From assembly GCF_009834915.1 (NCBI RefSeq), contig NZ_WVHS01000002.1, positions 124,001 through 188,000 on the forward strand: DNA of 64,000 bases, in the 5' to 3' direction. The first letter of the stretch is position 1. Each line of letters starts with the position of its first letter. Position numbers and translations under genes: made by a program. This stretch comes from Hufsiella ginkgonis (lineage in GTDB: Bacteria > Bacteroidota > Bacteroidia > Sphingobacteriales > Sphingobacteriaceae). This document shows positions 27,793 to 44,117 of the stretch, in pieces. The notes beneath the pieces are model-generated. The model was not told where the DNA came from. It did not search any database and worked only from the letters and a program-made list of their open reading frames with translations.

Positions 27793-28380
27793 TTATCGGT
27801 GTCTCGCCTCCAGGTTTCCCGCGATTGTTTTCAGATCGAGATTTTTCTCCCTGAGCAGCACCATTAAATGGAATACCAGGTCTGACGCCTCGTTAATGAG
27901 GTCGTGTTCCGTTTCCGCCAATGCGGCAATTACGGTTTCAACGCCTTCTTCGCCCACTTTCTGGGCGATCTTATTCAGCCCCTTGTGGCGCAATTTATTG
28001 ATGTATGAGCCTTCCACCGGGTTTTCATACCTGTCGGCGATAATGTTTTCCAGTTGGAACAGGAAGTTCTGGTTATAATCCGTATTAAAGCAGCTACGCG
28101 ACCCGGTATGGCAGGTTGGACCAACCGGGTTTACCTGGATCAGCAGCGTATCATTGTCGCAGTCGTGACGGATACTTTTAACGAACAGGAAGTTCCCGCT
28201 CTCTTCGCCTTTGGTCCACAGCCGGTTTTTTGTGCGCGAAAAAAAAGTAACCTTCCGGTTGGATGTAGTTATGGCAAGCGCCTCTTCATTCATGTAACCG
28301 AGCATCAGTACCTCCAGGGTTTGTTCGTCCTGGATGATCACCGGCACGAGGCCGCCCGATTTGGAAAAGTCTATTTCCAT
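27793..28380 (-). CDS. hisIE: Bifunctional phosphoribosyl-AMP cyclohydrolase / phosphoribosyl-ATP pyrophosphatase
   Basis: Histidine synthesis steps 2 and 3. The 195-residue fusion has HisI (about 1-105), with zinc-site motifs SIRHDCDNDTLLIQV and the late Cys pair in PTCHTGSRSC, and HisE (about 110-195), an all-helical pyrophosphohydrolase domain with EEGVETVIAAL and NEASDLVFHLMVLL. It is the last his gene. Its ATG shares the A of the hisF stop (TGATG), so translation is coupled. Confidence 0.97.
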   Translation of the reverse strand: MEIDFSKSGGLVPVIIQDEQTLEVLMLGYMNEEALAITTSNRKVTFFSRTKNRLWTKGEESGNFLFVKSIRHDCDNDTLLIQVNPVGPTCHTGSRSCFNTDYNQNFLFQLENIIADRYENPVEGSYINKLRHKGLNKIAQKVGEEGVETVIAALAETEHDLINEASDLVFHLMVLLREKNLDLKTIAGNLEARHR

Positions 28381-29135
28381 CAGATCCTTACATTTATGTG
28401 GTTGTTCTTAAGTAGTTGTTTCAGCTCCGGGATCAGGATCTCACCGTAGTGAAAAACAGAAGCCGCCAGCGCCGCATCGGCATCCGATTGCTGGAATACA
28501 TCGATAAAATGCTGTGTATTCCCGGCTCCGCCGGAAGCGATCAAAGGTATGGAAATGTGATCGTTTATTTGTTTCAGCAGCACATTGTCGAAACCTGACT
28601 TGGTGCCGTCGTGGTCCATGGAAGTAAGAAGGATCTCGCCCGCACCGCGTTCTTCGGCTTCTTTTATCCAGGCCGCCGTTTCTAAATGAGTAGCTACGCG
28701 ACCGCCGTTCAGGTGAACGAGATTACGTTCGCCTGCCGCTTTAGTGTCGACCGCTACCACCACGAACTGCTTGCCAAATGCGTCCGCCAGCTGGTTGATC
28801 AGTTCCGGGTTGCGTACGGCCGCAGAATTAATGGAGATCTTATCGGCGCCCGCGTTCAGCAGGATGTCGGCATCAGCCAGCTCGTTGATGCCGCCGCCGA
28901 TGGTAAAGGGGATATTCACCTGGCGGGCGACGGCTTTCACCAGCTCCACCATGGTTTTACGGCGCTCGTGGGTAGCGGTGATGTCCAGGAACACTAATTC
29001 GTCGGCCCCCTGCCGCGAATATTGCCAGGCAAGCTCAACCGGATCGCCGGCATCGCGCAGATCGACGAAATTCACGCCCTTCACTGTTCGGCCGTCCTTG
29101 ACGTCGAGACAGGGAATGATACGTTTGCAAACCAT
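28380..29135 (-). CDS. hisF: Imidazole glycerol phosphate synthase, cyclase subunit
   Basis: Takes ammonia from HisH to turn PRFAR into imidazole-glycerol phosphate and AICAR. It is a 251-residue TIM barrel with catalytic Asp in CLDVKDG (residue 11), the second catalytic Asp in VVAVDTKA (about 130), and phosphate-binding loops IGGGI and ASGGAGN. It lies between hisA (five bases upstream) and hisIE (one-base overlap). Confidence 0.97.
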
Positions 29136-29140
29136 GGGAT

Positions 29141-29890
29141 TTAGAGAGAGATCAGCGCTTTGAGGTTCCAGTCTTTGATATCCTCGATAGATATCCTGCC
29201 TTCGTAGATCGCCTTGCCAACCACGCAGGATTCCACTTTGATATCCTGCAACCCTTCAATATCGTCCATCGAGCTGATGCCGCCTGAGGCGATAAGCTTA
29301 ATAAAGGGGGAGTGGTCGAGCAGCTTGCGGTAAAGGCCGATTCCTGCGCCGCCAAGCTTCCCGTCTTTATTGATATCGGTACATAGAAAGCGGAAGAAAC
29401 CCAGGCGAAGGCAACGATCAACGTAATCCATCAGCTTGATCGGCGAGCTTTCCATCCAGCCGGAGTATTTGATCACCTCGTCGAGCACGTCGATGGCTAC
29501 CACGATATGGTCGGAATACCGGTAGCTGCCTGAAACCGCTACGCTCAGTTCGTCGAGGAACTCGGGGTTGGTAATGGCTTGTGTACCCACGATCACGCGG
29601 TGAACACCTGAATCGATCAGTTCTTTCACTTTCGCGATACTGCGCACTCCGCCGCCGTATTGTACTTTCATATCCGTTTTGCGGATAATGTCGAACAGGT
29701 ATTTCTGGTTGCTGAAATCGCCTTTAGCGCCGTTCAGGTCGATGATGTGAACGAACTCCGTTCCGTTCGACTGGTATTTCTCCACCATCTCTTCGAGCGT
29801 AACATCATAGAAGGTCGCATCGTCGTAGCTGCCTTCACGCAGCCTGACTACTTTTCCGTCAAGAATATCAATTGCAGGAATAATGTACAT
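29141..29890 (-). CDS. hisA: ProFAR isomerase (phosphoribosylformimino-AICAR-P isomerase)
   Basis: Amadori isomerase of histidine synthesis. It is a 249-residue half-barrel repeat protein with the general base Asp in [14 protein letters not shown], phosphate loops QYGGGVRS and ASGGISS, and an acid in CTDINKDG. It starts three bases after the hisH stop. It is a homologue of hisF, as usual. Confidence 0.97.
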
Positions 29891-29893
29891 CGT

Positions 29894-30490
29894 CTATGTC
29901 GCTAAAAGTGAAAAATTCTTTAATATGTGTTCGCCGGCTTCGCCAGACTTCTCAGGATGGAACTGTACCCCGTAAAAGAACCCTTTTTGAATCGCCGCTG
30001 AGAACCTGATCTCATAGCCCGCCGAAGCTAAGGTAAATTCCGGATTAAACTCTATAAAATATGAATGTACAAAATAAAAATACGTTCCGTCATCAATTCC
30101 ATCGAATAAAGACGTCCTTTTTTCGATCGTGATATTGTTCCAGCCGGTATGCGGCACCTTAAGCTTTATTTTGCCCGAAAAATGAAGCGTGTTGATGGGA
30201 ACGATGCCGGTTAACTGCGAGTTTCCTTCCTCGGAAAAGGAAGTCAGCAATTGCATTCCCACGCAAATACCAAGTACCGGCTTAGTTAAATTCCGGATCA
30301 CCGGTACCAAACCCGTTTCGTTCAGCTTGTGCATGGCAGCGCCCGCGTGCCCCACCCCGGGAATGATATACCGGTCGTATCCGTCAATATCCTCCGGAGA
30401 ATGGATCATGCCATAGGGGATTTTTAACCGTTCCAGCGCCGCTGTGAGCGAGAAAATGTTGCCGGCACCGTAGTTGATTATTCCGATCAT
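29894..30490 (-). CDS. hisH: Imidazole glycerol phosphate synthase, glutaminase subunit
   Basis: Class I glutamine amidotransferase of 198 residues that supplies ammonia to HisF. It shows the nucleophile Cys in LGICVGMQLL, the oxyanion strand IPGVGHAG, and the His/Glu pair in VQFHPEKSGEAG. A 148-bp spacer with repeats and a large inverted repeat separates it from hisB, the widest gap in the operon apart from the leader. Confidence 0.97.
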   Translation of the reverse strand: MIGIINYGAGNIFSLTAALERLKIPYGMIHSPEDIDGYDRYIIPGVGHAGAAMHKLNETGLVPVIRNLTKPVLGICVGMQLLTSFSEEGNSQLTGIVPINTLHFSGKIKLKVPHTGWNNITIEKRTSLFDGIDDGTYFYFVHSYFIEFNPEFTLASAGYEIRFSAAIQKGFFYGVQFHPEKSGEAGEHILKNFSLLAT

Positions 30491-30638: not shown

Positions 30639-31805
30639 CTATAATACGCCCTTCGTACTGGGGAGCGCCATATTATTTACGTTCCGTTTTACGGCGATCT
30701 TCATCGCCTTTGCGAAGGCTTTAAAGATCGCTTCTATTTTATGATGCTCATTCTGGCCTTCCGCTTTGATGTTCAGGTTTGAGCGTGAGGCGTCGGAAAA
30801 CGACTTAAAGAAATGGTAAAACATCTCCGTAGGCATTTCGCCGATCTTTTCGCGCTTAAACTCCGCTTCCCAAACGATCCAGTTGCGTCCGCCGAAATCA
30901 AGCGCTACCTGCGCCAGGCAATCGTCCATAGGAAGGCAAAAACCGTACCTTTCTATTCCGCGTTTATCGCTGAGCGCCAGTGCGAAAGCTTCGCCGAGCG
31001 CGATCCCGGTGTCTTCGATGGTATGATGTTCGTCGATGTGGAGGTCGCCCTGCGTTTTAATGCTGAGGTCGATACCGCCATGCCGGGCGATCTGGTCGAG
31101 CATGTGATCGAAGAAATGGATGCCGGTGGAGATATCGGCTTCACCCGTTCCGTCGAGGTTCAGGTCGATGCTGATCTTTGTTTCCCTGGTGTTCCGTGTA
31201 TGCGACACGGTACGGTGACCGACCTTTAAAAATTCGTAGATCTTTTTCCAGTCGGTACTTTCCAGGGCCACCGTATCTTTAATGCTCTCCAGCTGTTCCC
31301 GGCTGAATTCCCTGCCGCCCAGGTGTGATTGGTTGTTTAACCAGATCGCCTTTGCGCCGAGGTTCTTCGCCAGGATCACATCGTTCAGCCTGTCGCCAAT
31401 TACGAACGAGCCCGCCAGGTCATACGATGCCGTGTCGAAAAACTTTGTTAACATTCCCGTTCCCGGTTTTCGGGTAGGGGCCTGTTCATGTGGAAAAGTT
31501 TTGTCGATAAAAACCTCCGTAAATTTTGCGCCTTCGTTTTCGAACGTCTGCAGGATAAAGTTGTGCACAGGCCAGAAATTCTCGTCGGGATTGGCAGGCG
31601 TGCCCAAGCCGTCCTGGTTGGTCACCATCACGAGCTCGTAGTCCAGCTCGGTAGCGATCCTGGCAAGGTACAGAATGGAGCCCGGGTAAAAGATCAGCTT
31701 ATCAAACGAATCGACCTGTTCATCGGCCGGTTCTTTAACCAGTGTACCGTCGCGGTCTACGAACAGCACCTTGCGTATAGGGTTGATTTCCGGTGTATTA
31801 TCCAT
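30639..31805 (-). CDS. hisB: Bifunctional histidinol-phosphatase / imidazoleglycerol-phosphate dehydratase
   Basis: Fusion of 388 residues. The N-terminal HAD phosphatase (about 1-170) has DRDGTLV, VTNQDG and [10 protein letters not shown] and removes phosphate from histidinol phosphate. The C-terminal dehydratase (about 195-388) has the two manganese-binding repeats [16 protein letters not shown] and [17 protein letters not shown] plus [14 protein letters not shown]. This fused form is shared by Bacteroidota and enterobacteria. Its start overlaps the hisC stop by eight bases. Confidence 0.97.
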
Positions 31806-32853
31806 TGTTAAATGTTGCTAGTGCCTTAATTAATTGTTCGTTTTCTGCGGGCGTACCAATGGTGATGCGGAGGCTGCCTTCGCAGAGCGCTATTTTAGAG
31901 CGGTCGCGGACAATGATCCCGCTCTTTACCAGGTGTTGATAGATCTCTTTCGCATCGGTCGTTTTTACGAGAATGAAGTTCGCATCTGATGGATATACTT
32001 TCAGCACGAAAGGAAATGCGGTTAACTCTCTCGCTACTTTTTCGCGCGCTGTTACCGCCTCCCTGATCCAGTGATTCACCTGTTCAATGTTGTCGAGCGC
32101 CTTCGACGCCAACCGCTGCGATGCGTCATTCATGTTATAAGGCGGCTTCACTTTGTTGAAAACTTCGATAATTTCTTCACTTGCGAAAGCCATTCCAACG
32201 CGCAGCCCTGCCAGTCCCCATGCTTTCGAAAGCGTTTGAATAACTACCAGGTTGGCGTATTCCGTGAGTTCCCGGATGAAAGTTTTCTGACGTGAATAAT
32301 TGATATAGGCTTCGTCGATCACCACGATGCCGTCAAAATTGGCTATGACCGTTTCAATATCTTCCCGGTTGATCGAATTGCCGGTGGGGTTATTCGGCGA
32401 GCAGATAAAGATCAGCCTGGTATTGGGATCTATCGCTTCGGCGATCCCTTCCAGGTCAAGCTGGTAATCTTCGGTTAGCTTTACCCGTTTCAGGCGGACG
32501 TCGTTGATATTTGCCGATACCTCGTACATTCCATAAGTCGGCGGCACGATGATCACGTTATCGGTGCCCGGGCGGCAAAAGGCGCGGAACAGGATATCGA
32601 TCGCCTCGTCGCTACCATTTCCAACGAAAATATTCCGGGGAGGAACACCTTTTATTTTGCTCAGCTTCTCTTTTACGAGGGCTTGCAAAGGGTCCGGGTA
32701 GCGGTTATAGGGCTCCGGAAGAGGAGAGCCATAGCTGTTTTCATTCGCATCTAGGTAAACGGATGCTTCGCCCTTAAATTCGTCCCGGGCAGAGGAGTAG
32801 GGAACAAGGTTTTTTATATTTTCCCGTAGGAGGTTGTTGAGATCGAAGCTCAT
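31798..32853 (-). CDS. hisC: Histidinol-phosphate aminotransferase
   Basis: PLP transaminase giving histidinol phosphate, 351 residues, fold type I. Visible features are [12 protein letters not shown], the NPTGN turn, the VIDEAYI Asp, the Schiff-base Lys in [14 protein letters not shown], and the C-terminal Arg in SLRITIG. It lies 10 bases after the lipoprotein gene inserted behind hisD and overlaps hisB by eight bases, so the operon continues through it. Confidence 0.97.
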
Positions 32854-32863
32854 CGTTTAAATA

Positions 32864-33550
32864 TTAGGGTAACGGGTTAAACCCGCTGTTAAATTTCCAT
32901 GTTTGTTTTTCGTCGAATGCGAAAATCACCTGGTTATTCTCCAGGTAAGGCGTACTAAAATAGCCGCTGTAATCGGTGCCTGCATCGTTTTTCATCAGGA
33001 ACCGGCTGGTGGTTTTACGGGTAGCGATGTCAAATTCCGCTGCGTGGACGTCGAACGGGCCATGCTCACCGCGGGAAAGCAGCTGCCAGTAATAAAGTTT
33101 GTCGTTTATCACTGCCGGTGATGAAAAGTAATCGTTGAGGTTCTCCGCAACGCTGCTGAGCTTCGTCGCTTTGTTCTGTGCATCGAGCAATAAATAGGTG
33201 CCGTGACTGGCAATCATGGTATCTCCGTTCCACAGCGAATCGGCAAAGGTGTCCGGCTTCTGGTAGACATAGTATTTACCCAAACGCTGAAGGCCAAACC
33301 AGCCGCTAATGGTATCAACAAAATCTTTATCACGGGAGATTACGTAGTAAGTACCGTCTTCCAACTCATTACTATAGGTACCCGTATCGATCACGGTAAA
33401 ACTCGTAAGCAGTTTAAAAGGCTTGAACGATCCGTTGCCGGCAAGCTCCCCGCCTTTTATGGTTTCGGCCGCATCAGCGGTGTCGATTTTTGGCGCCCGT
33501 GTACACGACCATACAGCGGCCACAAAACATAAAAAGACTACAGCTTTCAT
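32864..33550 (-). CDS. Lipoprotein of unknown function inserted in the his operon
   Basis: A 228-residue protein with a lipoprotein signal (MKAVVFLCFVAAVWSC, Cys16). The mature part alternates beta strands and reads like a small propeller or beta-sandwich (DGTYYVISRDKDFVDTISGWFGL, HGTYLLLDAQNKATKLSSV). No histidine-pathway domain is visible. It starts one base after the hisD stop and ends 10 bases before hisC, so it must be transcribed with the operon. I do not recognise the family. A surface role under histidine control, or a recent insertion, are both open. Confidence 0.8.
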   Translation of the reverse strand: MKAVVFLCFVAAVWSCTRAPKIDTADAAETIKGGELAGNGSFKPFKLLTSFTVIDTGTYSNELEDGTYYVISRDKDFVDTISGWFGLQRLGKYYVYQKPDTFADSLWNGDTMIASHGTYLLLDAQNKATKLSSVAENLNDYFSSPAVINDKLYYWQLLSRGEHGPFDVHAAEFDIATRKTTSRFLMKNDAGTDYSGYFSTPYLENNQVIFAFDEKQTWKFNSGFNPLP

Positions 33551-33551
33551 A

Positions 33552-34844
33552 TTAGTCCTTTTTTAACCGTACGGTGACCGCATTTTTATGTGCCTGAAGC
33601 CCTTCCAGCTCAGCCAGGATCTCTACAGCTGGACCAATGTTTTTAATTCCCTTTTCGGAGATTTCCTGGAAAGTGATCTTTTTCACGAAAGAATCAACCG
33701 ATACGCCTGAATATGAACGCGCATAACCGCTTGTCGGCAAGGTGTGATTGGTTCCTGACGCATAGTCGCCCGCACTTTCCGGTGTCAGGCTCCCGATAAA
33801 AACGGAACCGGCGCTGGTTACTTTTTTTGCAAGCCCGCGGCTGTATTTCGTTTGAATGATCAGGTGCTCCGGCGCATAACGGTTGCTGAATTCCATGGCC
33901 TGGTCTGCACTTGACACGATAACTGCGAAGGAATTGTTCAACGCCATCCTGGCGATCTCTGCCCGTGGCAAAGCCCGGAGCTGTTTTTCGACCTCTTTTA
34001 ACGTGTCCGTCACAAAATCCGCCGATGCGGAAACCAATATCGCCTGGCTATCCGCGCCATGTTCGGCCTGTGCCAGCAGATCTGCGGCTGCAAAAACCGG
34101 GTTGGCCGTTTCATCGGCGATGATCAGTACTTCAGACGGGCCGGCGGGCATATCGATCGCTGTTTGCGTGTCGCCCTGTACCATGGTCTTTGCTTTGGTA
34201 ACATACTGGTTGCCAGGGCCAAATATCTTGTCCACCTTCGGGATACTTTGCGTACCATAAGCCATTGCGGCCACGGCTTGCGCGCCTCCGGCCAGGTAAA
34301 CGCGCTCGATGCCAAGCAATACCGCACAATAAGCCAGGAACGCGTTGACCATCCCGTTCTTTTGCGGTGGCGAACAAACGACGATCTCACCGCATCCCGC
34401 AAGTTTTGCCGGAATTCCCAGCATCAGGAAAGTACTGGGGAGTACCGCGGTTCCTCCCGGGATGTATAAGCCCACCCGTTCTATTGCCCGGATCTCGCGC
34501 CAGCAGGTAACGCCAGGCATAGTTTCCACCGGTTCCTCCTGCTGCAACTGTCCCTTATGAAAAGCATGGATGTTGCGGTAAGCGATCTCTAAAGCTTGTT
34601 TTTGTTCCGGACCGATGGTCGCGGCAAGTGCCTGGATTTCTTCTTTGCCTATAAAAAGCTCACGGAGCAGCACGCCGTCAAATCGTTCCGCGTAGCTGAA
34701 AAGCGCCGCATCGCCATGCGACTTTACGTTCTCTATAATATCCTGCACCCGCTCGCGGATCTCGTTCCCGTCGTCTGTATTTCTCCGGGTGAGCTCGTTT
34801 ATTGCACTGTCTGTAAGAGTGTCGTAGTGGTATATTTTTAACAT
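33552..34844 (-). CDS. hisD: Histidinol dehydrogenase
   Basis: Zinc enzyme that oxidises histidinol to histidine in two NAD-dependent steps. It has 430 residues with IPGGTAVLPSTFLM, the long FGPGNQYVTKAK signature, DMPAGPSEVLIIAD, EHGADSQA zinc ligands, APEHL, and the catalytic His region TNHTLPTSGYARSYSGVSVDSF. It is the second gene of the operon, about 80 bp after hisG. That gap holds a GATCAGTT-type repeat. Confidence 0.97.
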   Translation of the reverse strand: MLKIYHYDTLTDSAINELTRRNTDDGNEIRERVQDIIENVKSHGDAALFSYAERFDGVLLRELFIGKEEIQALAATIGPEQKQALEIAYRNIHAFHKGQLQQEEPVETMPGVTCWREIRAIERVGLYIPGGTAVLPSTFLMLGIPAKLAGCGEIVVCSPPQKNGMVNAFLAYCAVLLGIERVYLAGGAQAVAAMAYGTQSIPKVDKIFGPGNQYVTKAKTMVQGDTQTAIDMPAGPSEVLIIADETANPVFAAADLLAQAEHGADSQAILVSASADFVTDTLKEVEKQLRALPRAEIARMALNNSFAVIVSSADQAMEFSNRYAPEHLIIQTKYSRGLAKKVTSAGSVFIGSLTPESAGDYASGTNHTLPTSGYARSYSGVSVDSFVKKITFQEISEKGIKNIGPAVEILAELEGLQAHKNAVTVRLKKD

Positions 34845-34924: not shown

Positions 34925-35776
34925 CTACAAGATAATCTTCTCAATCGGTAATACCACGATCCCTTCCGCGCCTGCGGCTTTTAGCTCGCTGATCTTTTCC
35001 CAGAAATCGCGCTCCGGGATGACCGTATGAATAGCGATCCAGCCTTCCTCGGCCAGCGGCACCACGGTAGGGCTTTTAATGCCGGGAAGCAATTCTTTCA
35101 CCCGTTCGAGGTTTTTCTTTTCGATGTTCAACACCACGTACTTGGTTTCGCGGGCCCTTAAAACAGATTGTACGCGCTGGATAAGTTCGCTGATCAGCAG
35201 GTTGTCTTCATCGCCTTTACGGCCGATGAGGACCGCTTCCGAAGCCATCACATCTGTAAACGATTGCAAGCCATTGCTTTTCAGCGTACCGCCGGTAGAT
35301 ACCAGGTCACAGATGGCGTCGCTCATGCCGAGACCGGGAGAGATCTCCACGGAGCCCGAAATTGTGCGGATGTCCGCTTTCAGCTTATGCTCATCAAGAA
35401 ACCGTTTAAGGATAACCGGGTAGGAGGTGGCAATCGCTTTGCCGTTGAGGTCGCCGATAGACCGGATGGTGCTGGTGTGGGGAATGGCGATCTTGAGCGA
35501 ACATTTTCCAAATCCCAGCCGCTGTAGGTACGCTACGTCGGCCCCGGTTTCGCTGATCACGTTTTCGCCGACGATACCCAGGTCGGCGATGCCGTCCTGT
35601 ACATATTCGGGGATGTCGTCGTCGCGGAGAAATAAGATCTCCAGCGGGAAGTTAGAAACAGGAGAGATGAGGGAGCTTTTGTAATTGTCGAAACTAAGGC
35701 CGCAATTCTTCAGAAGTTCTACAGATTTTTCATTTAATCTGCCCGATTTCTGGATAGCTATTTTGAGTGTTTTCAA
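34925..35776 (-). CDS. hisG: ATP phosphoribosyltransferase, long form
   Basis: First committed step of histidine synthesis, feedback-inhibited by histidine. The 283-residue protein is the long form: a periplasmic-binding-like catalytic domain with LKIAIQKSGRLNEKS and DLGIVGENVI plus a C-terminal ACT-like regulatory domain (from about 215, LLPGIKSPTVVPLAEEGWIAIHTVIPE). No HisZ is needed. The start is TTG at 35776: upstream in-frame codons reach a TGA without an ATG, and the homologue-like start MKTLKIAIQKSG fits. It is preceded by a His-rich leader reading frame 69 bases upstream. Confidence 0.95.
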   Translation of the reverse strand: MKTLKIAIQKSGRLNEKSVELLKNCGLSFDNYKSSLISPVSNFPLEILFLRDDDIPEYVQDGIADLGIVGENVISETGADVAYLQRLGFGKCSLKIAIPHTSTIRSIGDLNGKAIATSYPVILKRFLDEHKLKADIRTISGSVEISPGLGMSDAICDLVSTGGTLKSNGLQSFTDVMASEAVLIGRKGDEDNLLISELIQRVQSVLRARETKYVVLNIEKKNLERVKELLPGIKSPTVVPLAEEGWIAIHTVIPERDFWEKISELKAAGAEGIVVLPIEKIIL

Positions 35777-35821
35777 GTTTATGTTGTTTAATCAGACCAA
35801 TGGTTACAGTTGCCAACTATG

Positions 35822-35868
35822 CGTTTCACGTAGAAACGTACTATTTTATCTATCGCCGCAATGGCGAT
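35822..35868 (-). promoter_or_regulatory. Hairpins between his leader and hisG, candidate attenuator
   Basis: In the his leader RNA, ATCGCC-ATTGC-GGCGAT (35868-35852) folds over the end of the leader reading frame. CGTTTC-TACGT-GAAACG (35838-35822) folds just after it. Both stems are 6 bp and perfect. No T-run follows the second, so a simple intrinsic terminator is not evident; control may act on translation of hisG or through Rho. Confidence 0.5.
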
Positions 35869-35905
35869 GATGGAAATGTACGTGGTGGGTGAAAACTACT
35901 GGCAT
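35846..35905 (-). CDS. hisL: Histidine operon leader peptide (His-rich, 19 residues)
   Basis: Short reading frame ATG...TAA encoding MPVVFTHHVHFHHRHCGDR: six His in 19 residues, at positions 7, 8, 10, 12, 13 and 15. It is preceded by AGGAG 11 bases before the ATG, one of the few good Shine-Dalgarno sites in this window, and lies 34 bases after a complete promoter. It sits between the promoter and hisG on the operon strand. This is the classic layout of a regulatory leader peptide, where ribosome stalling at His codons under histidine shortage changes RNA folding. Presence of the frame is seen; its role is inferred. Confidence 0.85.
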   Translation of the reverse strand: MPVVFTHHVHFHHRHCGDR

Positions 35906-35938
35906 TGTATTTGGTTCTCCTGATTAAATCGGGGAGCG

Positions 35939-35969
35939 CAAATATAGTGGTTCACCTGGAAAAAACAAA
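35939..35969 (-). promoter_or_regulatory. Promoter of the his operon
   Basis: On the minus strand: TTTG (35969-35966), 19-base spacer, TATATTTG (35946-35939). Both elements and the spacing match the Bacteroidota consensus. Transcription should begin near 35933, giving a leader of about 28 bases before the His-rich reading frame. Confidence 0.85.
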
Positions 35970-36038
35970 AATAAATGATGCGAAGCGCGCCCGATGCCGG
36001 AAGGCCCGGGCACGGATGCAGGTAATTAAACAAACAAA

Positions 36039-37556
36039 ATGAAAAGGATCACTTACTCATGTATTTTATTAATTCTCGTCGGACTGACGCTGGGGTCCTG
36101 TAAGAAACCCCGGTCTGATATCGGCGCAATCCTGTTCAAGGAAACCAAAAACAAGGTGTTTAAAAAGGTGGATTCCGTAGCTTATTACAAAGTTTTCAAA
36201 GAGTTACTGGCCGCTGAAAAAGACAACCTGAGCAACTCGTCCCTTATACAGGAGTTCTATACCACCAATGGTTATGAGCCCTATTTTATCGTGAATTTCA
36301 CTAAAGACAAGCAGCTGCTGAATGTGGTCGACCATTATGCCCAGGCGCCTGCACATGGTCTTAGTCCTGAGCTGTTTAACCATGCGGAGCTTGCGCCGCT
36401 GGTAGCAAAGCTCTATGGTAAAAAGGATATCAAAACGGTGGACGAAGCCTATAAAGTAATTGCACGAACCGAGCTGCTGACAGCCAACTCGCTAATAAAG
36501 TATGCTACCGCGATGCAGTATGGTATCGTAAACCCCCGCAAGATCTTTGCGCGCTACTATATGAAAACAGCCAAGCCCGACAGTGCTTTTATGCAAAAAG
36601 TGTTTGCTATAACAGACATAAAATCGTTCCTGGATACTATTCAGCCCAGCGGCGACCAATATAAAAAGCTGCAGGCGGCGCTTGCCTCAAATTATATTTA
36701 TACTGGCATGACCGCCGAAGAAACCAAAAAAGTGATCGGCCTTAACCTCGAGCGCCTTCGCTGGAAAAACAAACCCACCACCGACCGTTATGTATGGGTG
36801 AATATCCCGGACTATATGCTTACTTACGTGGAAAACGGCAAACCGGCACTTACTATGAAAGTATGCGTGGGAAAAGGCCCGGAGCAGTCGCAGGCTGACG
36901 CAGATTTCGATGAATCGGAAGAATCCGTTCGTCCGCATAATCACACGACGCCCCAACTGAGCAGCGCCATCAACAATGCGCAGGTAAACCCTGTCTGGAA
37001 CATCCCGGAGAGCATCGCCAAAAACGAGATCTATGCACACGTAATGAAAGACCCGTATTACCTGGTGAACAACAGCATTAATGTATACACCAAAAGCGGC
37101 TCGCAGGTCGACGCCGACGACATCGATTGGTCTGATGTAGATAAAAATAACATTCCTTACAGCTTTAAGCAGGCGCCCGGAGATGATAACTCACTGGGAA
37201 AAATTAAGTTCCAGTTCCCAAATTCCAGTTCGGTATACCTGCATGACACTCCCGCGCAAAAGCCCTTCGCGTTACCCGTGCGTGCCGTGAGCCATGGATG
37301 TGTGCGTGTGGAGAAGCCGCTTGAGCTGGCACACGCCCTGTTTGGTGATGGTGAAAAGTACAACCTCGTAAAAGAAGAAATGACCGAAAGCAATCCGTCA
37401 GCGAGAGATATTTCCCTGTCGCAGCCTGTTCCCGTTTTTCTTGATTACATGACCGCCTTCGCAGACGCCGCCGGCCAGGTACAGATCCGCCCGGACGTAT
37501 ATAAGCTGGATGATGTGTTATACCGCAGGATCAGGAAGGCGCTTGCGTATAAGTAG
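36039..37556 (+). CDS. L,D-transpeptidase (YkuD domain) lipoprotein
   Basis: Peptidoglycan 3-3 cross-linking or lipoprotein-anchoring enzyme acting in the periplasm. The 505-residue protein begins with a lipoprotein signal (VGLTLGSC, Cys21) and has an N-terminal helical and peptidoglycan-binding-like region as in YcbB (LSPELFNHAEL). The YkuD catalytic domain (about 255-450) shows HDTPAQKPF and the nucleophile motif SHGCVRV with Cys421. An acidic insert (DADFDESEESVRPHNHTTPQLSSA) interrupts the domain, as in LdtD/YcbB-type enzymes. It is convergent with the isomerase gene, with a large hairpin between. Confidence 0.92.
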   Translation: MKRITYSCILLILVGLTLGSCKKPRSDIGAILFKETKNKVFKKVDSVAYYKVFKELLAAEKDNLSNSSLIQEFYTTNGYEPYFIVNFTKDKQLLNVVDHYAQAPAHGLSPELFNHAELAPLVAKLYGKKDIKTVDEAYKVIARTELLTANSLIKYATAMQYGIVNPRKIFARYYMKTAKPDSAFMQKVFAITDIKSFLDTIQPSGDQYKKLQAALASNYIYTGMTAEETKKVIGLNLERLRWKNKPTTDRYVWVNIPDYMLTYVENGKPALTMKVCVGKGPEQSQADADFDESEESVRPHNHTTPQLSSAINNAQVNPVWNIPESIAKNEIYAHVMKDPYYLVNNSINVYTKSGSQVDADDIDWSDVDKNNIPYSFKQAPGDDNSLGKIKFQFPNSSSVYLHDTPAQKPFALPVRAVSHGCVRVEKPLELAHALFGDGEKYNLVKEEMTESNPSARDISLSQPVPVFLDYMTAFADAAGQVQIRPDVYKLDDVLYRRIRKALAYK

Positions 37557-39963: not shown

Positions 39964-39984
39964 ATTGCTAATATTATTAGTAAT
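39964..39984. promoter_or_regulatory. Imperfect palindrome before the dinB-dnaE pair
   Basis: ATTGCTAAT-ATT-ATTAGTAAT, 9-base arms with one mismatch, centred 36 bp before the dinB ATG. The size and position suit a dimeric repressor operator, for example a damage-response regulator, but no match to a known LexA box was recognised. Confidence 0.45.
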
Positions 39985-40009
39985 TTTATTCCATGTAACG
40001 GCTTCTCAC

Positions 40010-41197
40010 ATGATCACTTCAAACAGCCATCGGCATATCGCCCATTTCGACCTGGACAGTTTCTTTGTCAGTGTTGCCCGGTTGGATAACAGCGATCTTT
40101 TAAATAAGCCGATCCTCATAGGAGGATCGAGCGACCGTGGCGTGGTTGCGGCATGCAGCTACGAGGCCCGGAAATTCGGCGTACACAGCGCGATGCCCAT
40201 GAAGCTGGCGATGCGTCTTTGCCCGGAGGCCCGGATCGTTAAAGGGGATTACGATAGCTACAGCAAATATTCCCGGGTGGTGACCGAGATCATAAAAGGA
40301 GAGGTGCCGGTGCTTGAAAAAGCGAGCATCGACGAGTTTTACATGGACCTTACCGGGATGGATAAATTCTTTGGCTGCAGCAGGTTCACCCTTGAGCTGA
40401 AGCAAAAGGTGATGAAAGAAACGGGGCTGCCGATCTCCTATGCGCTCGCCTCCAACAAGCTGATATCGAAGGTCGGCACGAATGAAGCAAAGCCCGACGG
40501 GCAGATCGACATCGGCTTCGGCATGGAGCGTGCGTATCTCGCGCCGCTGAAGATCGATAAGATGCCCGGCATCGGGGCGAAGACATCGACTTTGCTGAGA
40601 CAAATGGGCGTAGAAACGATCCGGATCCTCAGCGAGATCCCTTTGCCGATGATGGAAAGCAAATTCGGCAAAAGCGGCATCGAACTCTCGAGAAAAGCGA
40701 AAGGGATCGACACGTCGCCCGTGATCCCTTATTCCGAACAGAAAAGTATCGGCAAGGAAGAAACATTTGGCAATGACACCATCGATGTGCATTACCTGCA
40801 TAGCGAGTTGGTACGGATGGTAGAGAACGTGGTGTACCAGCTGCGTAGCCAGCGGAAATTATGCGGGTGTGTTACGGTTAAGCTCCGGTATTCGAATTTC
40901 GACACCTATACGCGCCAGGCAGCCATCCCTTATACGGCTTCGGATAACGACATCCTGCAGGCAGCCAAAGATCTTTTCAGGAAACTGTACGATAAGCGAT
41001 TGCTGGTACGGCTGCTTGGCGTGAGGGTAAGCGATCTTGTTTACGGGCAGCAGCAGATCAACCTGTTTACAGATACCGATGAAAGTGTTCGCCTGTACCA
41101 GGCGATGGACCATATCCGGACACGCTTTGGCGAAAATATGGTATTCAGGGGTACCGCAGATCATTTACGTTCACCTAAATACCAGCATGTACGTTAA
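40010..41197 (+). CDS. dinB: DNA polymerase IV (Y family)
   Basis: Translesion polymerase of 395 residues. Catalytic carboxylates are intact: Asp14 in HFDLDSFFVS and Asp108-Glu109 in SIDEFYMDL. The YEARKFGVHSAMP steric-gate region, the HhH segment KMPGIGAKTSTLL and the little-finger domain follow. A beta-clamp motif QQINLF lies near the C terminus. The ATG at 40010 (MITSNSH) is preferred over an upstream start that adds a hydrophobic stretch. Its last 11 bases overlap the start of a DnaE-type gene, so both polymerases are made together. Because the active site is intact, it is Pol IV and not the inactive ImuB. Confidence 0.93.
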   Translation: MITSNSHRHIAHFDLDSFFVSVARLDNSDLLNKPILIGGSSDRGVVAACSYEARKFGVHSAMPMKLAMRLCPEARIVKGDYDSYSKYSRVVTEIIKGEVPVLEKASIDEFYMDLTGMDKFFGCSRFTLELKQKVMKETGLPISYALASNKLISKVGTNEAKPDGQIDIGFGMERAYLAPLKIDKMPGIGAKTSTLLRQMGVETIRILSEIPLPMMESKFGKSGIELSRKAKGIDTSPVIPYSEQKSIGKEETFGNDTIDVHYLHSELVRMVENVVYQLRSQRKLCGCVTVKLRYSNFDTYTRQAAIPYTASDNDILQAAKDLFRKLYDKRLLVRLLGVRVSDLVYGQQQINLFTDTDESVRLYQAMDHIRTRFGENMVFRGTADHLRSPKYQHVR

Positions 41198-44117
41198 CTG
41201 CAAAACATATTTTAGCTACCGCTACGGAACGTACGATACGAAGGAGCTGGTAAAAGAGGCGGCAGCACTTGGTGTGCGGGCGATGGCGCTGACAAATATT
41301 AACGGATCGCCGGATGCGTGGGATTTTGTCGATTTCTGCCGCGAATACGGTGTAAAGCCCATTCTTGGATGCGAAATAAGGAATGGCCATACGCTCTGCT
41401 ATGTGCTGCTGGCCAGGAACGCCGTGGGGTTTGCCGTGATCAACCGTTTCATTTCCGTATATAAACAAAACGGGCAGCCATTCCCGGGGCGGTTTGAAGG
41501 GCATAGGTCGGTGTATGTGATCTATCCGTTAGGCAGGTTTCAGCCGGACGAGTTGGGGGAGAATGACCTGATCGGGGTGAAGCCCTCGGAGGTCAACAAA
41601 CTGATCACCCTGCCGATGGCCGCCCACCCGGAGAAATATGTGATCAGGCAGCCCGTTACGTTCCAGGACAAACAGCGGTTTAACCTCCATCGCCTGCTTC
41701 GTGCCATCGACCTGAATACGCTCTGTTCCAAGCTTATGCCGCAAGACGTAGCCGGACCGGAAGAGTGCTTCCTGCCGGAAACCGAACTGATCACGCGGTT
41801 CCGGGAATATGCGGCGATGATTTGCCGTACCAACAGGCTGATCGAAGACTGCGGCATCGAAACGGAGCTGAAGAGCGATAAGAATAAAAAAACGTTTAGC
41901 GAATCTGCGGAAGATGACCGGCGCTTACTGAGGAAACTGGCGTACGACGGGATCTCCCGCCGCTACCCTAAACGAACAAAGGAGATCACAGACCGCATCG
42001 AGAAGGAGCTGGACGTGATCAATAAGATGAATTTTAATGCCTGCTACCTGATCGTAAACGACGTGATCCAGTATGCCCGAAGTCGTAATTTCTTTTATGT
42101 GGGTCGCGGGAGCGGGGCGAATTCTATCGTGGCTTATCTTATGGGCATTACCGACGTCGACCCGATCCGTTTCGACCTGTATTTCGAACGTTTCCTGAAC
42201 ACGTTCCGGGTAAGCCCGCCGGACTTTGATATTGACTTTAGTCACCGGGACCGGGATGAGGTGATCGACTATATTTTTACCAGGTACGGCAATGACCGGG
42301 TTTCGTTACTGGGGATGTACAGCAAGTTCAAGTACCGCGCTACCATACGCGAACTAGGTAAAGTAGTGGGGCTCCCTAAATCGGAGATCGACCAGCTGGC
42401 CGCACAACGGCCAGGGAATGTGCCCGACGACCGTCTTCACCGGGCAGTGCTCAAATACGGCCTGCTGCTGAAGAATTTCCCGAATTACCACAGCATTCAT
42501 GCCGGCGGGATACTGGTATCCGAAGAGCCCATTTATACGTATACGGCTCTTGAAATGCCGCCAAAGGGATTTGCTACTTCACAGGTGGATATGTTCCTTG
42601 CCGAAAAAGTGGGGCTGCATAAGCTGGATATCCTAAGTCAGCGTGGGTTGGGGCATATAAAGGATACCATTCAGCTGGTGAAGCAAAACCGGGGAATCAG
42701 CATCGACATTACCCGTGTGGATGACTTTATGACGGATGAGAAGGTTGCTTTCAATATCCGGAACGGGAATACCATCGGTTGTTTTTATATCGAGAGCCCG
42801 GCGATGCGCCAGCTGCTCACGAAGTTAAGATGCAGCGATTATCTCACGCTGGTAGCGGCGAGCTCGATCATCCGCCCGGGCGTATCCCAATCTGGAATGA
42901 TGAAGCAGTATATCTATAACTACCATCATCGCGACCAGGTGAAGTACCTCCATCCCAAAATGGAAGAGTTATTGAAAGAGACTTACGGGATCATGGTTTA
43001 CCAGGAGGATGTGATCAAGGTGGGCCACCACTTCGGCGGATTGAACATGGCGGAATCGGACGTATTGCGCAGAACGATGTCGGGTAAGTACCGCGACAGC
43101 GAGGAAATGGACAAGCTCGAATTGAAGTTCTTTGGCAATTGCCGGAAACAAGGGTACCCCGAACACACCATCCGCGAGGTATGGCGGCAAATGGCAAGTT
43201 TTGCGGGCTTTTCGTTCAGCAAGGCGCATTCGGCGAGCTTTGCCGTAGAAAGCTACCAGAGCCTCTATCTTAAAACCTACTACCCGATGGAGTTTATGGT
43301 AGGGGTGATCAATAACTTCGGAGGGTTTTACCGCACGCCTTTTTACTTCCACGAGCTCAAGCGCACCGGAGCAACGCTGCATGGCCCGTGCGTGAACCGG
43401 AGCCATTTGTATACTACCATTAACGGTAAAGATGTTTTTACCGGCTTTATTCATATTGAAAAACTTACCGATACGCTCAAGGAAAAGATCGTGCAGGAAC
43501 GCGAAGCACACGGGGCTTATCTTACGCTGCAGGATTTCATCGGGCGTGTACAGCCGGGGCAGGAATTACTGAATATCCTGATCAGGGCCGGGGCGCTTCG
43601 GTTCACCGGGATCCATAAGAAGGAACTGCTGTGGAAAGCCAATTTCACACAGCACAGGTTAAAAGCGCAGCCGGCGATGGCCGCGTTGTTCGATGAACCT
43701 GAAATGGAATTTACACTGCCTGAGTTCAAAAAATATCCCCTTGAGGATGCGCTGGACGAGCTGGAGCTGCTCGGTTTTACTATCGGCAATTCCTTCGACC
43801 TGGTGGATGACGACCTTTCCGGGCTCTCATATGCGCGGGAACTCCCGTTGCTGGAAGGGAAGGAAGTGAACCTCCTCGGCGAGCTGGTGATCACCAAAGA
43901 GTCCTGGACCCGCAAGAATGAATACATGGTTTTTGGCACCTTCCTGGATCCGCACGGCGACTGGATGGATACGGTCCACTGGCCGGCTTCGATCAACGCA
44001 TACCCCTTTTCGGGAAGCGGGTTTTACAGGATGAAGGGGAAGGTGATCGCTGATTTTGGCGTGTATGCGGTTGAAGTGACGGAGATGAGCAAAGTGGGAC
44101 GGAAAGCCGTGTATTAA
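41187..44117 (+). CDS. DNA polymerase III alpha-type subunit, error-prone DnaE2-like, degenerate PHP
   Basis: A 976-residue C-family polymerase, shorter than the replicative DnaE (about 1160). The palm has YVGRGSGANSIVAYLMGIT and the catalytic pair in PPDFDIDFSH (Asp346, Asp348), with a later acid in HKLDILSQRG; then YGIMVYQEDVI, helix-hairpin-helix segments and a C-terminal OB-fold (about 900-976). The C-terminal tau-binding region is missing. In the N-terminal PHP domain the usual HxHS motif is replaced by CKTYFSYR, so metal binding there is probably lost. The ATG at 41187 overlaps dinB by 11 bases. The pairing suggests a mutagenic translesion cassette, as for ImuB-DnaE2 elsewhere. Confidence 0.9.
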   Translation: MYVNCKTYFSYRYGTYDTKELVKEAAALGVRAMALTNINGSPDAWDFVDFCREYGVKPILGCEIRNGHTLCYVLLARNAVGFAVINRFISVYKQNGQPFPGRFEGHRSVYVIYPLGRFQPDELGENDLIGVKPSEVNKLITLPMAAHPEKYVIRQPVTFQDKQRFNLHRLLRAIDLNTLCSKLMPQDVAGPEECFLPETELITRFREYAAMICRTNRLIEDCGIETELKSDKNKKTFSESAEDDRRLLRKLAYDGISRRYPKRTKEITDRIEKELDVINKMNFNACYLIVNDVIQYARSRNFFYVGRGSGANSIVAYLMGITDVDPIRFDLYFERFLNTFRVSPPDFDIDFSHRDRDEVIDYIFTRYGNDRVSLLGMYSKFKYRATIRELGKVVGLPKSEIDQLAAQRPGNVPDDRLHRAVLKYGLLLKNFPNYHSIHAGGILVSEEPIYTYTALEMPPKGFATSQVDMFLAEKVGLHKLDILSQRGLGHIKDTIQLVKQNRGISIDITRVDDFMTDEKVAFNIRNGNTIGCFYIESPAMRQLLTKLRCSDYLTLVAASSIIRPGVSQSGMMKQYIYNYHHRDQVKYLHPKMEELLKETYGIMVYQEDVIKVGHHFGGLNMAESDVLRRTMSGKYRDSEEMDKLELKFFGNCRKQGYPEHTIREVWRQMASFAGFSFSKAHSASFAVESYQSLYLKTYYPMEFMVGVINNFGGFYRTPFYFHELKRTGATLHGPCVNRSHLYTTINGKDVFTGFIHIEKLTDTLKEKIVQEREAHGAYLTLQDFIGRVQPGQELLNILIRAGALRFTGIHKKELLWKANFTQHRLKAQPAMAALFDEPEMEFTLPEFKKYPLEDALDELELLGFTIGNSFDLVDDDLSGLSYARELPLLEGKEVNLLGELVITKESWTRKNEYMVFGTFLDPHGDWMDTVHWPASINAYPFSGSGFYRMKGKVIADFGVYAVEVTEMSKVGRKAVY

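Follow-up and report, generated by a model that had tools for sequence, protein, structure and literature searches.

A conserved histidine leader peptide without a terminator upstream of hisG in Sphingobacteriaceae, with a possible output at translation initiation

Attenuation by leader peptides is textbook transcription control. In the enterobacterial his operon, a short leader gene rich in consecutive His codons lies between the promoter and hisG, and the leaders of erm genes sense ribosomes stalled by drugs. Transcription attenuation upstream of the enterobacterial hisG is described in the passages cited (PMC8305728), and erm-type translational attenuation is treated in the abstract cited (PMC8274638). 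For Actinobacteria, the sections cited on the LEU element (PMC1262725) present a leader peptide without a terminator and with a base stem formed with the downstream start region, in which the run of Leu codons pairs with the SD sequence of leuA and a pseudoknot was proposed. Within Bacteroidota, strong clues for leader peptide attenuation upstream of amino acid operons are given for Flavobacterium psychrophilum in the passages cited (PMC9723704), and leader-like short ORFs are mentioned in the excerpt cited for B. thetaiotaomicron (PMC7366714). According to the sections cited on hisS and hisZ, the sensor located before the terminator switched from a T-box to a leader peptide (PMC2965389).

In the present work, the region upstream of hisG was analysed in a stretch of 64,000 nucleotides (the window) from the 5.2 Mb genome of Hufsiella ginkgonis, whose nearest named relatives belong to Sphingobacteriaceae, among them Paradesertivirga, Daejeonella, Arcticibacter, Mucilaginibacter and Pedobacter. 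With a confidence slightly above even, the element is considered a histidine-sensing leader peptide whose output in this family would lie at translation initiation of hisG and not at transcription termination.

The leader gene and its conservation

As read from the sequence, the leader gene lay on the operon strand between a predicted promoter and the first structural gene (Table 1), and its placement on the minus strand agreed with the preliminary description. The consensus promoter reported there was also recovered. Its TTTG was located at -33 in the window, and the -7 box TAnnTTTG, which was scored alone, preceded the leader ATG by 10 to 70 nt in 146 of 150 family loci, compared to 6.0 expected from shuffling. 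The hisG TTG stood 69 nt 3' of the leader gene. The last ORFs of the operon are probably hisA, hisF and hisIE by position, and the his genes after hisG would all share one transcript with it. The ORF between hisD and hisC encoded 228 residues with a lipoprotein-like N-terminus. At 39965-44117 on the plus strand, a Y-family polymerase gene adjoined a DNA polymerase III alpha-like gene, a pair which we take to resemble an error-prone polymerase cassette.

Table 1. Position of the leader elements and his genes in the window
Feature	Position	Strand	Details and basis
Bacteroidota-type promoter (predicted)	35939-35969	minus	TTTG 35966-35969 and TATATTTG 35939-35946; sequence
P0, 5' arm	35911-35928	minus	TTTAATCAG-gaga-ACCAA, just 5' of leader ATG; MFE and permutation
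Leader peptide gene	35846-35905	minus	MPVVFTHHVHFHHRHCGDR, stop included; 19 codons; ATG 35903-35905, stop 35846-35848
Hairpin H1	35852-35868	minus	ATCGCC-ATTGC-GGCGAT; 5' arm overlaps last His codons; compensated stems, permutation
Hairpin H2	35822-35838	minus	C-GTTTC-TACGT-GAAAC-G; directly after leader stop, no U-run behind; permutation
P0, 3' arm	35787-35800	minus	TTGGTCTGATTAAA, 11-24 nt 5' of hisG start codon; MFE and permutation
hisG (ATP phosphoribosyltransferase)	34925-35776	minus	TTG start 35774-35776; Pfam HisG 4.5e-49, HisG_C 9.6e-28
hisD	33552-34844	minus	Pfam domain
ORF between hisD and hisC	32864-33550	minus	no Pfam match
hisC	31798-32853	minus	Pfam aminotransferase domain
hisB	30639-31805	minus	Pfam domain
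hisH	29894-30490	minus	Pfam glutamine amidotransferase domain
Further ORFs, putative hisA/hisF/hisIE	27793-29890	same strand as his operon	position

A 19-codon frame with six His codons between positions 7 and 15 had been called improbable by chance. Its coordinates were confirmed, with His at codons 7, 8, 10, 12, 13 and 15 (six in nine codons). When the 200 bases before hisG were shuffled by mononucleotides 20,000 times, six His in ten codons were never reached, and five His in ten codons were reached four times.

The conservation of the leader was then assessed in related genomes. Among the matches listed, hisG was found in at least 232 of 251 family genomes, from which 80 further stretches were taken. 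The family set comprised 155 distinct regions upstream of hisG, each of at least 200 bases, and the outside set 68 loci from other Bacteroidota families. With three His in ten codons as the criterion for a His-rich leader, 153 of the 155 Sphingobacteriaceae loci passed, and as the frame of locus L014 was unrelated, a leader was assigned to 152. Loci L137 and L164 both carried a His leader, and the leaders of L143 and L146 contained three His only. In L144 and L186 a His-rich leader was absent from the sequence read, and in these two loci, as in L014, hisG started with TTG. A His-rich frame was also located 5' of hisG in 60 of the 68 outside loci, a count which is less certain because several of these frames were longer and less regular. 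The last His codon was codon 13 to 16 in 140 of 151 leaders. Relatives which keep the promoter and lack the frame, named beforehand as the finding that would speak against a leader, were looked for, and the frame was instead retained in the proportion given above. These counts inside and outside the family strongly supported control of the his operon by a leader peptide.

RNA structures, terminators and the start of hisG

The leader region of the window had an MFE of -50.8 kcal/mol (z -3.6), and none of 200 dinucleotide shuffles was as stable, which confirmed the hairpins seen earlier behind the leader frame. Across 151 loci, the stem of H1 occurred as ATCGCC/GGCGAT, ATCACCAC/GTGGTGAT and CATCACC/GGTGATG, and that of H2 as GTTTC/GAAAC, GTTTTG/CAAAAC and GCTTC/GGAGC. 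No structure was detected by RNAalifold in 99 loci aligned with MAFFT, and two further alignments, of 27 hand-picked and of 64 loci, served for visual inspection alone. As the stems slide by 1-2 bases between genera, the arms were permuted instead of folding an alignment. None of 10,000 arm permutations was as good as the cognate arms for H1 (z -5.5) or H2 (z -6.0), based on 36-40 distinct arm pairs from 46 of the 54 loci (among 71) which fitted a hand-made pattern; two control combinations gave z +3.9, in the opposite direction, and z -1.2, which is little. The comparison of related upstream regions, which had been proposed as a check, thus revealed compensatory changes in both stems besides the conserved frame.

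The 3' arm of H1 was read in two frames according to genus, GGC-GAT (CGDR) versus G-GTG-AT or G-GCG-AT (VVIR, FAAM), so that conservation at this position concerns the RNA and not the peptide. In the MFE structure of the window, the 3' arm of H2 paired with leader codons instead. The same structure contained a pairing of the middle His codons with the stretch before H2, which was dropped as a general feature since no covariation was found (z +0.4). The covariance model R1, covering H1 and H2, detected one copy in each of eight family genomes (8/8), 35-60 nt upstream of hisG when the positions were compared, and none in a further 288 genomes of the phylum, searched with filters under which weak matches are lost. 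No Rfam family matched the whole window at the gathering threshold, or the region 35740-36040 at E up to 1.

In addition to the two hairpins, a long-range helix designated P0 was predicted between the leader start and the region before hisG. In the MFE structure of the window, TTTAATCAG..ACCAA paired with TTGGT and CTGATTAAA. The arms differed by genus yet remained complementary, for example TTATTAAAAAGAC/GTCTTTTAATAA in one Pedobacter group and ACTATA/TATAGT in Mucilaginibacter, where P0 was weak in many loci. P0 was tested in 136 of the 155 loci, namely those in which the leader was at most 150 nt from hisG and preceded by 75 nt or more of sequence, and in which the match began at a start codon. 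The cognate arms paired at about -7.9 kcal/mol and the permuted arms at about -5.2 kcal/mol, and none of 5000 permutations was as good at each of three clusterings (z -10.7 with 71 loci, -8.5 with 51 and -7.0 with 34); as for H1 and H2, the permutation models no tree, and the clustering is its only guard. The test windows had been narrowed after a weaker first test with wider windows, in which cognate pairs reached -9.7 and non-cognate pairs -7.0 kcal/mol, z fell below -2 against shuffled downstream sequence in 24% of 99 loci, and only 34 percent of these 99 loci had their cognate arm among the best tenth. As controls, two windows further upstream and the middle of the leader (nt 24-48) showed no covariation with the hisG start region, whereas the leader's first 24 nt covaried with it as P0 did (0/5000), so that P0 reaches past the leader start codon. 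The H2 region gave a weak signal with the hisG start region (z -1.3 to -2.7).

The preliminary description had found no U-run terminator, and this was confirmed by an independent pattern scan of the window region on the minus strand and by a script searching for a hairpin followed by at least five T between leader and hisG. The script called a terminator in none of the 155 Sphingobacteriaceae loci (3.0 expected from shuffling) versus 50 of the 68 outside loci (0.8 expected); among the 60 outside loci that bear a leader, 49 had a hairpin followed by a U-run. The requirement of five T misses some terminators, such as the hairpin with four T seen by eye in locus L201. An antiterminator exclusive with a terminator had nothing to exclude, no terminator having been found in the pattern scan of the window region or by the script in the 155 family loci. 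The departure from classical attenuation which had been suspected therefore holds, and the family would have lost the terminator rather than never having had it. Seven outside loci (L231, L242, L245, L249, L251 and L252 of family f38, and L244 of f57) carried His-rich leaders before hisG in which a terminator was undetected. The region 3' of the leader in the f38 and f57 loci was C-rich and G-poor (C 0.263, G 0.101; four loci measured). The terminator was perhaps lost a second time in these loci, or they may be of a Rho type.

Other amino acid leaders of the same genome were also inspected. Upstream of trpE (L267), a Trp leader MTNALHTSNIWWWPAQLRREIVVL was followed by a hairpin with seven T in both the script and the pattern scan. 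Upstream of thrA (L277), a Thr/Ile leader MHLNQSIITTIITTIGKSPEEG and the terminator AAAAAGCCTTCCTCCGAAATGAGGAAGGCTTTTTTG were recognised by eye; the script missed this terminator because the thrA start was placed inside the hairpin, and in the pattern scan this almost symmetrical hairpin is listed solely for the opposite strand. No clear leader was found before ilvD of this genome. In four other family genomes, the script identified terminators before trpE in 4/4 and before thrA in 3/4. The genome of the window thus seems to use the classical form of leader and terminator for other amino acids (Trp and Thr/Ile), which argues against a general loss of terminators in the family.

The start codon of hisG also distinguished the family. 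With the leader within 150 nt, hisG started with TTG in 85 loci, GTG in 50 and ATG in one (135/136 non-ATG; 136 of 139 rows tallied, as three rows begin inside hisG). Outside the family, the nearest in-frame start was ATG in 57 of 67 loci and TTG or GTG in 10, one of the 68 rows being without an assigned start. The Fisher value for this difference in start codons is nominal, since related loci were treated as independent. The AGGAG site described as clear before the leader was present in the window, and most of it lay in an internal loop of P0 in the MFE structure. Its function is doubtful, because SD-like motifs occurred in only 8 of 150 family leaders and the ribosomes of Bacteroidia are reported, in the passages cited, not to recognise SD sequences (PMC9976891). 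For F. johnsoniae, the same source and the portion cited of a second one describe how RNA structure near the start codon and A residues upstream of it tune initiation (PMC6847099, PMC9976891). In view of these reports, the weak start together with a helix at -11 to -24 is plausible as a control point for hisG.

Twelve of the 155 loci differed in arrangement, as their leader and hisG were separated by more than 150 nt and hisG then started with ATG (L015, L016, L021, L148, L151, L156, L162, L164, L167, L170, L172 and L179). Ten of them, without L021 and L164, were used for the tests, and in these the distance from H2 to hisG was 78-297 nt. The leader start region showed no pairing signal with the hisG start region in these ten loci (2521 of 5000 permutations as good), so that a conserved helix pairing the downstream start region was found for the 136 eligible loci and not for these ten far ones. 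The leader start region of the ten loci paired instead near H2 (198 of 5000 permutations as good), clearly in L016, L156, L170, L172 and L179. In five of the ten, a post hoc search identified a frame which begins with ATG, has 10 or more codons and ends at most 4 nt from the hisG ATG (1.0 expected from shuffling), and such a short ORF could relay control by translational coupling. In L016, L156, L162, L167, L170, L172 and L179, the distance between H2 and the ATG-started hisG was 118-297 nt, and a TTGAAACC-like stretch recurred in six of these seven (not in L172) where hisG of the relatives would start.

Possible readout and alternatives

The comparison between loci shows that the leader, H1, H2, P0 and the non-ATG start are conserved, with no terminator. 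Leaders of this kind are established to work by stalling on codons of the sensed amino acid, and the sensing of histidyl-tRNA by a ribosome stalling on the His codons is well supported by anatomy and conservation. A readout at translation initiation of hisG stands at about an even chance, and it is preferred because P0 extends to where hisG starts and a different start codon accompanies it. During transcription, a ribosome would load on the 19-codon leader. With ample His-tRNA it would complete the leader and depart, H1 and H2 would fold, and P0 would join the leader start region to the stretch 11-24 nt before the hisG start, leaving few initiations on the weak TTG. With scarce His-tRNA the ribosome would stall on the His codons and block H1, whose 5' arm overlaps the last of them; this ribosome and a second one held at the leader start would keep the 5' arm of P0 occupied, and hisG, and the operon with it, would be translated. 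We infer the stalling, the queued second ribosome and the direction of control; with a last His codon at 13-16, a second ribosome would fit at the leader start.

When 71 loci were folded under ribosome constraints, one stalled ribosome barely shifted the accessibility of P0 (mean +0.01 to +0.07), which is a point against a translational readout. P0 opened only with a ribosome at the leader start, by +0.16 to +0.17, and the region around the hisG start then gained only 0.07. Further points against it are the 12 of 155 loci with far leaders, the weak P0 of many Mucilaginibacter loci, and L144 and L186, in which hisG starts with TTG without a leader, as it also does in L014.

The preliminary description had offered translational control of the TTG-started hisG and Rho as possible mechanisms, and the covarying P0 and the start codons favoured the former, although the readout itself is deduced. 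In a Rho-dependent attenuator, the stalled or released ribosome would set Rho loading between leader and hisG, and H1, H2 and P0 would shape access. Such a mechanism agrees with the lack of an intrinsic terminator in the family, and also with the base composition from leader stop to hisG, which was C 0.174 vs G 0.108 in the family (145 loci) and 0.179 vs 0.176 outside (52 loci); as Rho would act at any distance to hisG, the far-leader group would fit as well. However, the stretch between leader and hisG is partly structured and, in loci whose leader is within 150 nt, has a median length of only 67 nt, and the conserved TTG/GTG starts and the reach of P0 to the hisG start region are left without a reason. 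Rho-dependent attenuation is therefore rated unlikely, while keeping some weight.

Transcription attenuation without a U-run, with H2 or P0 acting as a non-canonical terminator or pause, is less probable still and regarded as a doubtful account. By their anatomy, the leaders of related families and the other leaders in this genome are transcription attenuators, and H2 stands directly after the leader, as a terminator might. But H2 is AU-rich, a U-run terminator was scored in none of the 155 family loci, trp in the same genome has an ordinary U-run terminator, as has thr when judged by eye, and the non-ATG start of hisG would be unexplained. It is very improbable that the arms of P0 are half-sites of a DNA-looping regulator with the leader peptide separate or a relic, since inverted copies changing together would suit a dimeric regulator too, but the arms vary widely between genera, lie about 110 nt apart in presumably transcribed sequence and are accompanied by two hairpins which covary independently. 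A decaying relic, in which the his leader persists and regulation is lost, is equally remote, for it accords with the missing terminator across the family sample and conflicts with H1, H2 and P0 being kept by compensatory change and with the leader being kept in nearly all loci.

Returning to a readout at hisG initiation, a tentative history falling somewhat short of an even chance can be proposed. An ancestral His transcription attenuator would have become translational in one family: the terminator would have been lost, hisG would have gained a weak TTG or GTG, a new helix P0 with the leader start region would mask the hisG start region, and a ribosome queue would open the operon. The far ATG subgroup may relay control via a short ORF ending at hisG.

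Comparison with described systems

Leader peptide attenuation, and signs of it in this phylum, are already in print. Among the matches listed, no published title or abstract described a terminator-free his leader or P0 in Bacteroidota, and the terminator-free his form with P0 is apparently new. One kind of sensor at one gene is coupled to a terminator in much of the phylum sample and to a conserved RNA fold without a terminator in the whole family. The family thus offers a natural test of how an attenuator output changes from transcription to translation, with ordinary terminators for other amino acids in the same genome. With ribosomes reported to be SD-blind, regulation by a structure that masks the start region would be instructive.

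Similar to the enterobacterial his leader, the family has a short gene with a His run between promoter and hisG, and RNA structures controlled by the ribosome are expected. It differs in having no terminator or U-run, a helix between leader start and hisG start, a non-ATG hisG and no Rfam match. Other Bacteroidota families share the same gene, the same place and the same kind of His-rich leader; they differ in the hairpin and U-run of most of their leader loci and the mostly ATG start of hisG, and the terminator-bearing His leader is perhaps the ancestral form. The leaders of F. psychrophilum represent the same idea in the same phylum, and neither a his operon nor a form without terminator is named in the passages cited (PMC9723704).

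As in erm, a ribosome on the leader peptide is proposed to control access to the start of the next gene. Unlike erm, the sensor here would be a run of His codons, and the partner in the helix is the leader's own start region. The LEU element, the closest terminator-free precedent found in the portions of the literature cited here, likewise has an amino acid leader that lacks a terminator, and its base stem includes the start region of the downstream gene, but in the family it is the sequence 5' of the leader ATG that pairs with the sequence 5' of hisG. Finally, hisS and hisZ likewise combine a His leader peptide with an attenuator type that changes at one gene between lineages; there the sensor was exchanged, whereas in the present family the sensor is retained and it is the output part that differs.
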